DNA of 11,479 bases, taken from positions 13,808-25,286 of the forward strand of contig DGNJ01000129.1 of NCBI GenBank assembly GCA_002388905.1, read 5' to 3'. The notes beneath the pieces are model-generated. The model saw nothing but the letters and a program-made list of their open reading frames with translations, had not been told where the DNA came from and searched no databases. The DNA comes from Cellvibrionales bacterium UBA4495 (GTDB lineage: Bacteria; Pseudomonadota; Gammaproteobacteria; Pseudomonadales; Porticoccaceae). Positions 4,451 through 8,683 of this stretch are shown in pieces (position 1 is the first letter of the stretch; each line of letters starts with the position of its first letter). The translations under genes were made by a program, and so were the position numbers.

Positions 4451-5707
4451 ATGGCCACTCCCCAAGACGCCGGGCCGGTCGAGCTCGGCGATCTGGATTC
4501 CCGCCACTTTGTCGACGTGGAATTGTGCAGCGAATCCCTCAGGCAAAACGCCCTTAAAGGGGTCATGGCCGACTGGGCCACCCGCCAGCCCTTTTACGCC
4601 TATAAAAGTGGTCTGCCAGTGCTGGTCTGCGCGCGTGCCCGGGATGTTCGTGAGGTCTATAACGACCCCCGGCGCTTTACGGTAGAGGCACCTCCCTATG
4701 ATGCCTACAAGGTGTTCGATATTTTCGGCGGGCTGGAAAATGTTCTGCAGATGGACGGTGAGCGCCATGACCGGATACGCCGTTTGATGGCGCCGGCTTT
4801 TTCTCCGGCCGCTGTCCACCAACTGGAAGGCGCAATCGATGCAATCATTCGGGAGAAGCTGGACAGGATCGAGGCGAGTGGCCCCGGCTTCGACGCCATG
4901 GCGGATTTCAGCCGCGATATCATCGTCCGGGTATTGCTGGATGCCTCCTTCCACCTGACACCCGAGCAACAGAACGTTTTTGCCCGGATGCACGACAACA
5001 TTTCCCTGGCCACCCAGTTCCGTTCCGGCGAACCCCTGCCGGAAGACTTTCTCAACAGCGTCATGGAAGTGCGCCGGGTGATTATGGAAATCGTCGATCA
5101 GCGCCGTGCCGAACCCGGCGACGACATGATCAGCCGATTGGTCACGGCAAGGGATGAGGGCAGCCGGCTGACGGACGAGGAGCTTTTCGGGCAGATCAAT
5201 GCCATTTGTGCCGCCGGCCTGGGTTCCACCGCCGCTAGTCTGGGCGCCGCCCTCCTGACGCTTTTGCGGCACAGGGACCAATGGCAACTGCTAAAGCGGG
5301 AACCGGAGCGGGTGGACGCCGCGATTGAGGAGTGTCTTCGCTTTCACGGGCCGGGAATCCATGTCTTTACCCGTTTTGCGGTCGGGGACACCGTGCTCGG
5401 CGGCACGCCGGTGCCCGGCAATATCCCGGTAATCGCCGCGATGCAGGCGGCCTCCTATGACCCCGAGGAATACGACGACCCCCTGCGTTTCGACATTACC
5501 CGAAATCCCCGGAATATCCTGACCTTCGGCGGCGGGCCCCATTTCTGTATTGGCAACCGCCTGGCCCGGCTGATTATGAAAAGGGCGCTCCTGGCCATGA
5601 TTAAAAGCTTTCCGGACCTGCAACTGGCGGATCCGTTTTACGAGCCGGAATACGGCGGCTTTCCGGGCGAACTTTGCCTGAAATCCCTGCCCCTGCGCAC
5701 CCATTAG
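4451..5707 (+). CDS. Cytochrome P450 (bacterial, soluble) with non-canonical I-helix motif
   Basis: A 418-residue soluble P450 of normal bacterial length. Seen: the haem-binding loop FGGGPHFCIG at 359-368 with Cys366 as thiolate ligand; the K-helix ExxR motif E294-C-L-R297; and a C-helix region GERHDRIRRLMAPAF that contributes haem-propionate contacts in this family. The oxygen-activating I-helix reads A255-G-L-G-S-T260. The usual acid (Asp/Glu) is Gly258 and the usual Thr is Ser259. The start is supported by AGGAAG 7 bases before the ATG. It needs external electron donors, and no ferredoxin or reductase gene is in the window. The last 107 bp overlap the converging TetR gene. The CYP family and substrate are not recognised. 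Confidence 0.95.
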   Translation: MATPQDAGPVELGDLDSRHFVDVELCSESLRQNALKGVMADWATRQPFYAYKSGLPVLVCARARDVREVYNDPRRFTVEAPPYDAYKVFDIFGGLENVLQMDGERHDRIRRLMAPAFSPAAVHQLEGAIDAIIREKLDRIEASGPGFDAMADFSRDIIVRVLLDASFHLTPEQQNVFARMHDNISLATQFRSGEPLPEDFLNSVMEVRRVIMEIVDQRRAEPGDDMISRLVTARDEGSRLTDEELFGQINAICAAGLGSTAASLGAALLTLLRHRDQWQLLKREPERVDAAIEECLRFHGPGIHVFTRFAVGDTVLGGTPVPGNIPVIAAMQAASYDPEEYDDPLRFDITRNPRNILTFGGGPHFCIGNRLARLIMKRALLAMIKSFPDLQLADPFYEPEYGGFPGELCLKSLPLRTH

Positions 5708-6434
5708 CATGGGCAGGGGGCTTTCCCGGTTCAGTTGCCGGTTCGATAAACACCAGTTGGTTAATGGTGTCTATGGTTTTCCGGACCTCCGCGTCGCTGG
5801 CCAGGTTCCGACCGGTAATGGCTTGGAATTCGGCGGCCTGGGTAAAGATATTGGCCATGCCCACAATGGCATGAGAGAGCCTTTCCGGCGGTACCTGCCT
5901 CACCGAGCCTTCGTCCTGGGCGGCCGAAATAATCGCAGTCATAGCCCGGAAATGGCGTTTGACAAAGTATTTCAGTAACCATTCCAGGCGGTCCGTCATT
6001 TCGTGTCCTTCCAGGGACATGAGTTGATGAAATTCCGGAAACTCGCAACTCACCCGGACCATGCTAACGATGATCTGCCGCAACTTGTCCGATGCAGACA
6101 GGGCCGCGTCGTCGCCCAGTTCCCGTATACGGTCGTCGAAGCGCCTGACCGCCGACTGCACCGTTTCTTTCCAGAGATTTTCCTTGGACTGGAAGTGGTA
6201 GATGATCAGTGGAACGCTGACTTTTGCCCGTTGAGCAATCTGTTGGACAGTGGCGCCCTCGTAACCCCGGTTGGCAAAGGATTTCAGGGCGGCCTCTAGG
6301 ATCCGTGCCCGGACTTCCTCGGGGCGCCGGCGGCGCCGAGGCCGAGCTTGGGCGGTTGTGGTTTCTGGCCGGATCTTCCCCAAGTCGATGCTCCTGGTCG
6401 GGATGACGCTGGCGCCGTGCGCGGTAACGTACAT
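5601..6434 (-). CDS. TetR/AcrR family transcriptional regulator
   Basis: A 277-residue protein from ATG 6434. A basic RPRRRRRPEEVRAR stretch leads into a TetR DNA-binding domain at about 41-86 (ILEAALKSFANRGYEG, VQQIAQRAKVS, IIYHFQSKENLW). An alpha-helical ligand and dimerisation domain follows. Three starts are possible. ATG 6434 has GGTGG 6 bases upstream. TTG 6383 has a better AGGAG 7 bases upstream and gives 260 residues. ATG 6539 would give 312 residues and sits at the predicted transcription start, so it would be leaderless. The frame runs 107 bp into the 3' end of the P450 gene, adding a Pro/Gly/Arg-rich tail of about 50 residues after the last likely helix. It is divergent from the Rieske pair and probably represses that pair and itself. 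Confidence 0.92.
   Translation of the reverse strand: MYVTAHGASVIPTRSIDLGKIRPETTTAQARPRRRRRPEEVRARILEAALKSFANRGYEGATVQQIAQRAKVSVPLIIYHFQSKENLWKETVQSAVRRFDDRIRELGDDAALSASDKLRQIIVSMVRVSCEFPEFHQLMSLEGHEMTDRLEWLLKYFVKRHFRAMTAIISAAQDEGSVRQVPPERLSHAIVGMANIFTQAAEFQAITGRNLASDAEVRKTIDTINQLVFIEPATEPGKPPAHANGCAGAGISGKVRPESRRIPARKTDPPVAGPESF
5690..5719 (+). terminator. Possible hairpin spanning the P450 stop codon
   Basis: CCCTG (5691-5695) pairs with CAGGG (5714-5718) and CCCAT (5700-5704) pairs with ATGGG (5709-5713), with a 4-base bulge. The P450 TAG stop sits in the tetraloop TAGC. The following bases contain only a short CTTT, so termination would be weak. The structure also lies inside the TetR frame on the other strand. 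Confidence 0.25.
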
Positions 6435-6526
6435 GAGCGTCCACCGCTGGGATGGAGCGGGCAGTCTATCAAGCTGACCATAAAGATCAATTTGGATTTC
6501 CCGGCCTGCTGGCTTGTTGACTTTCC

Positions 6527-6554
6527 TTGACGCCGGCATTAACTTATTTATAAG
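6527..6554 (+). promoter_or_regulatory. Sigma70-type promoter for the Rieske gene pair
   Basis: TTGACG (6527-6532) and TATAAG (6549-6554), each five of six to consensus, are separated by 16 bp. Predicted transcription starts near 6561, giving a leader of about 90 bases before the GTG at 6651. The -10 lies within the palindrome at 6539-6558, so a bound repressor would block it. Confidence 0.6.
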
Positions 6555-6558
6555 TTAA
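6539..6558. promoter_or_regulatory. Perfect palindrome, likely TetR operator
   Basis: Arms TTAACTTAT (6539-6547) and ATAAGTTAA (6550-6558) are perfect inverted repeats around a 2-bp centre. A third half-site-like ATAAGT occurs at 6558-6563, 8 bp after the ATAAGT at 6550. The palindrome covers the predicted -10 elements of both divergent promoters. A symmetric site of this size between a TetR gene and its divergent neighbour is the usual autoregulatory arrangement. Binding itself is inferred. Confidence 0.65.
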
Positions 6559-6575
6559 TAAGTAAAGTTTGTCTG
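6547..6575 (-). promoter_or_regulatory. Promoter for the TetR gene
   Basis: On the minus strand CAGACA (plus 6570-6575) and TATAAA (plus 6547-6552) are 17 bp apart, matching consensus at four and five of six positions. The predicted start of transcription near 6540 falls right at the upstream-most possible ATG (6539). It overlaps the Rieske promoter head-on and shares the palindrome. Confidence 0.45.
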
Positions 6576-6650: not shown

Positions 6651-7631
6651 GTGATCGATAGGCAAAAACTCGGTTCGTCATGGCATCCGGTGGCACTTTC
6701 CTCGGAGATCAGCGGGAGTGTACCCCTGGCGCGCCAGTGTCGGGGCAGGGAATATGTGCTGTTCCGGGATCGCAAGGGGGTTGCCCGGGCTCTGGAGGAT
6801 CGCTGCGCCCACCGGCGCGCCCCGTTGTCCATGGGCCAGATCAATGACGCCGGCCAGATCCAGTGTCCCTACCATGGCTGGACCTTCGAGGGGGATTCCG
6901 GCCGGTGTGTCGCCATACCCAACCTGGGTAAGAACGAAGCTGTTCCCGGCGATTACCGGGTTGAGAAATATCCCCTGGTGGAAAAATGGGGTCTGGCCTT
7001 CCTCTGGGTGGATGCCGGCAAGGAAGCCGACGAAAACCTGCTGCCGAAACTCGACTTCAAGGCCGGAAAGCAAGGGTCGGAGGGTGAGGCCCTGTTGACG
7101 CTTCCCTGGCGTGCGTTTGTGGATACGCTTCTCGATGCGCCATCCCTGGTGCTTGCCGAAAAGGGGATGTCCATTATCGATGATCACCTGCTGGGCGAAC
7201 CCTTCCGGGAGGATGGCTGGTTTGTCGTCGAAAGGGCGGCGACCTGGTCCAGGCGAGGCGGAAAGCGAAAGCTGGTTCCGGCGGACTATCCCCTGGTTTT
7301 TCGCACTCGCCTGGATAGTTTTACGGGTATTGCCTGTCTGGAGCTGGTGGACGAAGGGAACCGGCTTTTGTTCTCCGTGGTTATTGCTTCGGTACCGGTA
7401 ACCGGGACGGTCACCGCCGCCTACTGGCGGGTTGCCAGGCAGTATCGGAGTGAACCGGCGCTGGACGGAAAGCTTGCCGACAAGTGCAGATCCATTGAGC
7501 TGGCTGTCTCCGATAAGGTTGACGCCCGTCGCCTCCTTCAGGTTCATCCTTATGTTTCCGGTTACTGGCGGGGTGATATCAACGTCTACAGCATTGAGCA
7601 GGCTTCTGCCAGGAAGGGGAAAGCGTCATGA
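6651..7631 (+). CDS. Rieske [2Fe-2S] protein with degenerate oxygenase domain (electron-transfer half of pair)
   Basis: A 326-residue protein laid out like a Rieske oxygenase alpha subunit. The N-terminal Rieske domain is intact: C52-A-H54 followed by C72-P-Y-H75-G-W, with 17 residues between the two ligand pairs. After it comes a linker (YPLVEKWGLAFLWVD) and a C-terminal region of the size of the catalytic domain. Where functional enzymes have DxxHxxxxH, this protein reads D162-A-P-S-L-V-L-A-E170, so both iron-binding histidines are gone while the Asp remains. It should hold a cluster but not the mononuclear iron. The GTG start is preceded by AGGA 5 bases upstream. Its stop overlaps the next ATG (ATGA), so the two are probably translationally coupled. 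It is the first gene behind the TetR-controlled promoter. Confidence 0.9.
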   Translation: MIDRQKLGSSWHPVALSSEISGSVPLARQCRGREYVLFRDRKGVARALEDRCAHRRAPLSMGQINDAGQIQCPYHGWTFEGDSGRCVAIPNLGKNEAVPGDYRVEKYPLVEKWGLAFLWVDAGKEADENLLPKLDFKAGKQGSEGEALLTLPWRAFVDTLLDAPSLVLAEKGMSIIDDHLLGEPFREDGWFVVERAATWSRRGGKRKLVPADYPLVFRTRLDSFTGIACLELVDEGNRLLFSVVIASVPVTGTVTAAYWRVARQYRSEPALDGKLADKCRSIELAVSDKVDARRLLQVHPYVSGYWRGDINVYSIEQASARKGKAS

Positions 7632-8683
7632 CCCGTGTCGATTCAACGGCGGAAGTACAGTCCGAAGTCAGGGGCAAGAGTGGCCGCATGGTCAGGTGGG
7701 AGCCGGGCAGGCATATTCTTCGCGACGCCTGGTTTCCGGTCGCCCATACACCTGTTCTCGGCAGCACGCCGGTGCGGCGCTACGTGCATTCGCAACCGTA
7801 TTATATCGTTCGTGAGGGCGACAGGTTCCGGGCCTTCGAATTTCACCCTGAAGAATTGAAAAGGCGCGGGAAAGAGGCGAGCGAGTTCACCGGCGGTACC
7901 GGCGAGTATCCGCTGGTCGATCGTTACGGGTTCACCTGGGTCTGGTATGGCAATCCGGACAATGCCGATCCGGCCCTGATTCCGGATATCCCCTTTTTGC
8001 CCTCCCGGCGTTCGATGCCCGCCTATGCCCGGGTCACCAATTTTTTTCACTGTACCTACGAACTGGTGCTGGAAAATGTCCTGGACCTGACTCATATCGA
8101 TTTCGTTCACGGCAACTTTGCCGGTACCTTCGAGTCCGAGGATGACCGGATCACTGTCGATTCCACGTCGGAAACAGTGACCATGGTGCGGACCATCAAG
8201 AAGAAACCGACGTCCGAGTATCAGAAAAAGGTCCTGGGCGTCCGGGAAAAGTTCCAGGATGTGACCACGGTAACCCATGTTTTTATTCGCAGCGGCATCT
8301 GTTTTCTGCATGCACACTACACGTCAGCGCCCTCGATGCCCCTGATGCAGAACAACACCCCTGAGTCGCCTTTCCTTACCCGGGCCGATGCCATTTTCGG
8401 GCTCGAACAGTGTCCGGACATCACCTACCGCAAAAACTGGCCCAAGACCGGGCCCATGGTGGCGGCCCAGGACGAAGCCATGCTCAATCCGCAAAACCCC
8501 AGGTACCTGTTCGAGGCGCCTGGGCCGGACATGAATACCCGCTTCGACACGGCAGGCCTGGTCTACAGGCGTCGCCATCAGGAACTGCTCGAAAGGCAGC
8601 AGATGGGTGATTATTCCTACAATACTGATATTGGCGATGGTGCAAAAATCGCCGAGATACTCAAGGTCAGGCGAATGCGCTGA
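7628..8683 (+). CDS. Rieske oxygenase-like catalytic protein lacking the [2Fe-2S] ligands (catalytic half of pair)
   Basis: A 351-residue protein. Residues 30-70 and 94-120 align by eye with the outer parts of a Rieske domain (LRDAWFPVAH; YPLVDRYGFTWVWYGNPDNADPALIPD). The section that should carry CxH and CxxH is missing, replaced by a short hydrophilic stretch (about 71-93) with no cysteine. The catalytic motif is intact: N150-V-L-D153-L-T-H156-I-D-F-V-H161, matching the DxxHxxxxH of naphthalene dioxygenase. The usual third ligand is less clear: near GPMVAAQDEAM (275-285) the expected Asp seems to be Thr274. AAGGGG lies upstream of the ATG inside the preceding gene. It probably receives electrons from the upstream partner's cluster. 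The substrate is unknown. Confidence 0.9.
   Translation: MTRVDSTAEVQSEVRGKSGRMVRWEPGRHILRDAWFPVAHTPVLGSTPVRRYVHSQPYYIVREGDRFRAFEFHPEELKRRGKEASEFTGGTGEYPLVDRYGFTWVWYGNPDNADPALIPDIPFLPSRRSMPAYARVTNFFHCTYELVLENVLDLTHIDFVHGNFAGTFESEDDRITVDSTSETVTMVRTIKKKPTSEYQKKVLGVREKFQDVTTVTHVFIRSGICFLHAHYTSAPSMPLMQNNTPESPFLTRADAIFGLEQCPDITYRKNWPKTGPMVAAQDEAMLNPQNPRYLFEAPGPDMNTRFDTAGLVYRRRHQELLERQQMGDYSYNTDIGDGAKIAEILKVRRMR

Follow-up and report, generated by a model that had tools for sequence, protein, structure and literature searches.

Why would two overlapping genes each encode an alpha-type subunit of a Rieske oxygenase from which one of the two metal sites is missing? The question is raised by a stretch of 11,479 nt (here called the window) from Cellvibrionales bacterium UBA4495, which corresponds to positions 13,808-25,286 of the forward strand of contig DGNJ01000129.1 in assembly GCA_002388905.1. 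Gene A (6651..7631, plus strand) has a GTG start and encodes a Rieske subunit of 326 aa without a mononuclear-iron site, and gene B (7628..8683, plus strand) encodes a mononuclear-iron subunit of 351 aa without a Rieske cluster, as judged in both cases by Pfam, alignment and AF2 models. Sequence comparison leads us to argue that A and B very probably constitute one split, two-subunit Rieske oxygenase, in which the cluster of A would reduce the iron of B.

Two proteins with complementary metal sites

The Rieske [2Fe-2S] domain of A spans residues 10-94 (6678..6932, plus strand; Pfam PF00355, 81.9 bits), and the CxH...CxxH ligands are present in the chain as C52 and H54 (codons in 6804..6812, plus strand) and C72 and H75 (6864..6875, plus strand). 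Pfam reported only Rieske families for A, and no flavin or NAD domain was found. The second domain (approximately residues 141-309; 7071..7577, plus strand), whose limits were taken from a fold match to dicamba monooxygenase (DdmC) and from the alignment of D162, is of the catalytic type and has decayed: the 2-His-1-carboxylate iron triad and the DxxHxxxxH motif are absent from the chain of A. To follow these sites through evolution, we collected 116 A-B pairs in the loci described below and in the window, of which 94 are distinct (the window's pair recurs) and 67 share less than 90% identity. The positions of A that align with the iron ligands are variable, as exemplified by position 165, which is E in 21, G in 15, S in 8, Q in 7, D in 5 and H in 5 of the 67 pairs, with other residues in the rest. 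Only the Asp position is kept. D162 (7134..7136, plus strand) matches the bridging Asp that B and complete relatives have, with D present in 59 of the 67 pairs and in every sequence of an alignment of 45 A proteins; the bridging-Asp position of A is conserved though both iron histidines are gone.

B has the opposite complement. Its N-terminal part (approximately residues 28-107; 7709..7948, plus strand; limits approximate, from profile alignment and fold match) is the remnant of a Rieske domain without a cluster, and the cluster-binding segment is missing in the profile alignment to complete relatives. CxH is absent from B, and no Rieske family matched at E ≤ 0.1 in Pfam. Pfam assigns VanA_C to B (117.8 bits); PF08417 was not among the matches at E ≤ 0.1. 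The chain holds D153, at the position of the bridging Asp, and the iron ligands H156 and H161 (8084..8110, plus strand). A further residue, D282 (8471..8473, plus strand), was not named in the first-pass annotation of this DNA. An alignment of 52 B proteins shows no variation at this residue, and the way it aligns with complete relatives, together with what is known of the family, suggests that it is the third ligand, completing the 2-His-1-carboxylate triad.

The ligands that remain are strictly conserved. Among the 67 diverged pairs, C52, C72 and H75 of A are kept in all 67 and H54 in 66, the remaining residue reading X (L039), and D153, H156, H161 and D282 of B are kept in 67 of 67. The motif check and this alignment uphold what the first-pass annotation had said of A, namely that it has C52/H54/C72/H75 and no DxxHxxxxH. 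For B, it was right about D153/H156/H161 and about the lack of CxH, and wrong in denying any CxxH, of which B holds one stray copy. It had also proposed a search for co-occurring pairs with the same reciprocal losses, and the 67 diverged pairs with complementary ligands are such pairs.

Both proteins nevertheless have the two-domain alpha fold of Rieske oxygenases in their predicted single-chain AF2 models (pLDDT 91.5 and pTM 0.88 for A; pLDDT 89.2 and pTM 0.88 for B), in agreement with the near full-length alpha-subunit layout noticed at first reading. Residues 5-308 of the A model superpose on residues 3-329 of dicamba monooxygenase in the fold comparison, and the fold match of B starts at residue 28. 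Direct alignment of A with B shows that they are homologous across both domains. The nearest structures by fold for A and B, which are also among the nearest solved structures by sequence, are DdmC (3gke/3gb4) and guaiacol O-demethylase (7qwt); unlike A/B, both enzymes carry the two sites on a single chain. No NCBIfam model was passed by A or by B; for 4beta-methylsterol monooxygenase SdmA (NF052579, cut-off 600 bits), A scored 72 bits and B 32.6 bits.

The two genes overlap by ATGA (7628..7631, plus strand), the start of B lying on the stop of A, as first noted. Of the 114 A-B pairs that have an ATG for B, 15 show this 4-nt overlap when the nearest ATG is considered, and in 95 the nearest ATG lies within 30 nt of the A stop.

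Pairing and genomic surroundings

Protein searches gave 223 matches for B and 424 for A, and the best 120 of each were analysed. Among the best 120 of the B matches, 118 have the iron motif without the Rieske motif and 2 are fusions. The best 120 of the A matches comprise 111 A-type proteins (P0121-P0231), 1 fusion, 6 complete oxygenases and 2 short Rieske proteins. A Rieske motif without the iron motif is found in 107 of the 111 A-type proteins. Two show neither motif and are read as short gene calls, namely P0121, a 266-aa version of the A in the window, and P0222, of 236 aa; the last two, P0150 (at 233) and P0180 (at 187), have a motif of the "wrong" site. Such motifs were also seen in the A of one locus (L065, at 177 of 303) and the B of another (L149, at 36). 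All four lie away from the aligned site and were dismissed as chance matches.

A genome scan found 174 B relatives in 84,980 species genomes. From these, 78 loci were kept for neighbourhood analysis, which span Gamma-, Beta- and Alphaproteobacteria, Verrucomicrobia and Actinobacteria (taxa as named in the records). The matched B is directly preceded by a same-strand A in 76 of the 78 loci. One exception (L077) is an A-B-B array in which the second B was the one matched, and the other (L027) shows no A in the 13.8 kb of sequence taken for that locus. The array, found in a Mycolicibacter (L077, 6433-10975; genome G405, contig C222), consists of a single A and then two B, and one A may serve both.

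We then counted the genes in 49 whole genomes, which were reached via 50 of the 78 loci and had been chosen for holding B. B was found 63 times (E ≤ 1e-40). A was sought at E ≤ 1e-25, which gave 109 rows; 62 rows with at least 155 bits were kept, and the remaining 47, with at most 124.8 bits and matching mainly in the Rieske part, were taken as complete oxygenases without being inspected singly. The 63 B and 62 A form 61 adjacent A-B pairs. The unpaired A belongs to the genome of L027 (G373), where it lies 10.5 kb from B on the same contig and on the opposite strand, and the second B without an adjacent A is the additional copy in G405.

Because these 49 genomes were selected by B, we also searched from the side of A in 994 genomes (298 + 349 + 347), whose group names were assigned from the loci leading to each set. 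We found 12 A in the 298 genomes of the genus Pseudomonas, 7 in the 349 of Burkholderiaceae and 11 in the 347 of the sphingomonad family. All 30 of these A genes (at least 237 bits; 13 in genomes of the 49-genome count, 17 in others) adjoin a B, in a search that scored 6-7 first-look candidates per genome and may therefore miss diverged lone A genes. A candidate for a lone A in the Burkholderiaceae set (L154, 144 bits) carries a DGAHAVFTH motif itself and was rejected as a complete oxygenase. B is also present in 4 plasmid records, and a Rieske protein gene is annotated directly upstream in all three of those examined.

When 370 genomes were sampled across the class to which the window belongs, a clear B was found only in the window's own genome, which has two copies (585 and 457 bits); the next best match in the sample scored 73 bits. 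The A-B pair has a patchy distribution, yet A and B are nearly inseparable where they are seen. The first-pass annotation had considered that homologues commonly occurring alone would speak against a joint function; in the sampled genomes adjacency is instead near-strict. Distances among A proteins also follow those among B proteins, with r = 0.92 for the 94 distinct pairs and r = 0.87 for the 67 diverged pairs, against 0.25 for the best of 1000 permutations. Such co-variation and adjacency are expected for partners, and would also result from co-inheritance of one operon.

Two observations on the relatives may be added here. The actinobacterial A (L034, L066, L077, L085, L090) score 162-199 bits, below the proteobacterial ones, and their open frames of 407-510 aa from stop to stop are longer. 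In annotated records the pairs have generic names such as 'oxygenase' and 'Rieske 2Fe-2S domain-containing protein'.

Upstream of A, the window encodes a divergent TetR-family regulator (5601..6539, minus strand; Pfam TetR_N 56.7 bits, residues 80-125) and a cytochrome P450 (4451..5707, plus strand; Pfam p450 111.4 bits); the P450 and TetR open reading frames are convergent, and their 3' ends overlap by 107 bp. Between the TetR gene and A there is a perfect 10-bp inverted repeat with a 2-bp spacer (6538..6559), a candidate operator. The longest TetR open reading frame starts inside this repeat, so its start was probably called too far upstream, with the real one further in. TetR genes stand directly upstream of A in several alphaproteobacterial loci as well.

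The neighbour survey found no constant partner gene across loci. Many loci have catabolic neighbours, including SDR, enoyl-CoA hydratase, acyl-CoA dehydrogenase, CoA-transferase, P450, MFS and DUF1329/MMPL genes. Pseudomonas loci have CoA-transferase, acyl-CoA dehydrogenase and APH-kinase genes, and some loci outside Pseudomonas have DUF1329, YCF48-like and MMPL genes. Downstream of B in Pseudomonas loci such as L035-L038, L044, L057, L060 and L062, the APH-family kinase adjoins the acyl-CoA dehydrogenase and the CoA-transferase III has ~750 aa; this arrangement is reminiscent of 4-hydroxyacyl-CoA catabolism. The second B of the window's genome belongs to a second, diverged A-B pair (L172, 3929-6051; contig C58 of genome G000), whose neighbours encode an epoxide hydrolase, a SnoaL-like protein, an enoyl-CoA hydratase, an SDR, a BKACE protein, an FAA hydrolase and a glyoxalase-fold protein. 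These neighbour genes fit the catabolism of hydrophobic compounds and name no substrate, which is probably a hydrophobic ring compound. The window's genome, a 3.4-Mb draft, is strongly oxygenase-rich, with 23 Rieske-domain matches, nine of them on contig C104.

Proposed electron transfer, alternatives and origin

What could two half-equipped subunits do together? In Rieske oxygenases, cluster and iron are ~12 Å apart across neighbouring subunits as against ~45 Å within one, and a conserved Asp bridges the two sites between subunits (PMC12445004). The A-B pair may be seen as such an enzyme after one subunit has lost all but the donor and the other all but the acceptor. We propose that the [2Fe-2S] cluster of A would take up an electron from a reductase or ferredoxin, and that the electron would then cross the A-B interface from a cluster His through the bridging Asp D153 to H156, along the route used between neighbouring identical subunits of ordinary Rieske oxygenases. 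The Fe(II) in B, held by H156/H161/D282, would receive this electron, O2 would be activated at B, and B would oxygenate a hydrophobic catabolic substrate. As to the donor, no reductase was recognised within the 11,479-nt window; the window's genome has five NAD_binding_1 matches outside it, and a small plant-type ferredoxin gene lies near the pair in some relatives.

That A and B act as one oxygenase, as had been suggested from this single locus, is strongly supported by comparison, through near-strict adjacency, invariant complementary ligands and natural fusions. The ligand distribution, the predicted single-chain folds, the pairing, the fusions and the homology over both domains were obtained directly. 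The fusions are the strongest hint that the Rieske domain of A serves B. P0101, named as Binatia, and P0103 are both 461 aa long. In each, residues 11-93 form an A-type Rieske domain, after which comes a complete B that retains its own cluster-less N-terminal remnant; the second domain of A is absent.

Complex formation, electron route, oligomer shape and substrate are what we infer, and the dead counterpart domain in each protein may serve as the scaffold of a mixed oligomer. Dicamba monooxygenase is listed as an alpha3 trimer (PMC12445004). A three-membered ring cannot alternate between A and B, so the assembly of an obligate hetero-oligomer must differ from a plain alpha3 trimer; a ring of six alternating subunits and swapped stacked rings are among the forms it might take. 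Tentatively, and with rather more doubt than confidence, we suggest that A and B represent an obligate hetero-oligomeric family with one-way transfer from A to B, an assembly unseen in the family, and a structural or substrate-sensing role for the dead domain of A.

Alternatively, A could act like a Rieske ferredoxin that has one additional domain, a dissociable carrier that reduces B in transient contacts and forms no stable hetero-oligomer with it. Both fusions keep only the Rieske domain of A, and two A-like proteins of 206-210 aa (P0235, P0237) are without most of the second domain, which suggests that this domain is dispensable. A plain carrier would need no alpha-type second domain at all, however, and it is kept in most A proteins seen, so that we regard a transient carrier as unlikely, though it is the most serious of the alternatives.

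Could A and B instead each modify complete Rieske oxygenase subunits encoded elsewhere? Candidates for such partners are at hand, in the Rieske-domain matches of the window's genome, in complete oxygenase genes within the examined flanks of 12 of the 78 loci, and in a complete ring-hydroxylating dioxygenase alpha-subunit cluster that recurs near the pair in 13 loci (L029, L095, L104 and others) and is annotated beside a beta-subunit gene in one of them (L104). A complete subunit is near the pair only in a minority of loci, however, A and B stand side by side in unrelated bacteria, and the fusions join the domain of A to B. Such outside partners are therefore very unlikely, and one split oxygenase remains our reading of the pair.

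To understand where A and B came from, we compared them with complete single-chain relatives (the P0232 group), 30 proteins of ~350-400 aa that are of the VanA_C type and carry both metal sites; we know of no member with an experimentally established function. The profile of this group matches A with E = 7e-46 and B with E = 1.4e-78. In a catalytic-domain tree that holds 20 P0232-group and related proteins (C1), B, the fusions and C1 fall on one side of a branch with SH-aLRT 99, under a long-branch warning. On this sequence evidence B appears to group with the complete single-chain relatives, which have in one chain the two sites that the pair has in two. The source of A is not indicated by the Rieske tree without outgroup. 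With outgroups, A falls outside the complete groups C1+C2, which group together at 99 (100/99 on 47 thinned rows), and this speaks against an origin of A from a C1-like gene. These trees rest on 128-129 columns, too few to place A: a forced grouping of A, the fusions and C1 is not rejected for the Rieske domain (p-AU 0.115), nor is a clade of A and the fusions (p-AU 0.181), and the fusion proteins shift from inside A in the tree without outgroup to a basal position in the 47-row outgroup tree.

The first-pass annotation had supposed duplication of one gene followed by reciprocal loss. This would fit the architecture of A and B, which share homology across the two domains and can both be aligned to one complete single-chain family; the Rieske trees leave the source of A unplaced, and an older or another alpha subunit may also have given rise to A. 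Fission, in which one gene was broken in two rather than two full copies each losing a site, is highly improbable. The genes do lie adjacent on the same strand in the order Rieske then catalytic, and fused proteins exist. But remnants of both domains are present in each protein, A aligns with B over both, and the profile alignments to complete relatives cover most of B and much of A. Moreover, the fused proteins carry the Rieske-like remnant of B in addition to the Rieske domain of A, and with both Rieske parts they look like secondary fusions. Finally, that one of A and B is a non-functional pseudo-subunit or decaying gene and the operon a relic, as the cofactor site missing from each and the stops counted inside the whole-genome matches for 2 of 63 B and 2 of 62 A might suggest, is scarcely credible when the ligands that remain do not vary among the 67 diverged pairs.

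Significance and known two-chain systems

Each subunit of an ordinary Rieske oxygenase both gives and receives electrons, and the two roles are hard to separate. In A/B they lie on different chains, so that each metal site could be loaded, reduced, mutated and titrated on its own chain. The pair would open the one-way cluster-to-iron step, substrate gating and the role of the bridging Asp to direct tests. It also bears on activity screens, in which B expressed alone is predicted to fail without A; one genome collection holds 174 B relatives.

The closest precedent is the chlorophyllide a oxygenase of Micromonas, which was absent from the first-pass annotation and is closer than the NdmC cited there. 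In the work of Kunugi et al. 2013, MpCAO1 reportedly has the Rieske motif and MpCAO2 the iron-binding motif, and both are said to be needed together. With the motifs so distributed, A/B would have the same arrangement, a cluster on one chain and an iron site on the other. MpCAO1/MpCAO2 is one Rieske oxygenase in two chains, as we propose for A/B, and the authors consider a trimer of dimers likely for it (PMC9615114). The Micromonas enzyme is eukaryotic and acts on chlorophyllide, whereas A/B are bacterial and operon-borne, lie in catabolic-type clusters and occur in several phyla. The complete relatives of B are of the VanA_C type, and the likeness to the chlorophyllide a oxygenase is one of two-chain layout, with no claim of shared descent.

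The 7-methylxanthine N7-demethylase NdmCDE resembles the pair in another respect. NdmC, with NdmD/NdmE, is like B a cluster-less catalytic subunit that receives electrons from the Rieske domain of another chain (PMC4408171, PMC10380055), and according to PMC4408171 it was with NdmCDE that a Rieske domain detached from the oxygenase and fused to the reductase was first reported. NdmCDE differs from the pair in that its reductase carries the Rieske domain and that it needs a GST-like protein; by Pfam and its alpha-like second domain A is no reductase-borne Rieske protein. The Rieske domain of the pair instead belongs to a subunit that is alpha-like and whose catalytic domain has decayed. A third comparison is with NdmA/NdmB, an alpha3-alpha'3 hexamer in which two different alpha-type subunits share one assembly (PMC12445004, PMC10380055); unlike A and B, NdmA and NdmB each carry both metal sites (PMC10380055).

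No bacterial pair like A/B was found in the literature searched by title and start of abstract, a search that covered few subscription papers and so gives a weak absence. We consider A/B a new and widespread bacterial form of an oxygenase whose two-chain principle was already known from the Micromonas chlorophyllide a oxygenase and from NdmCDE.
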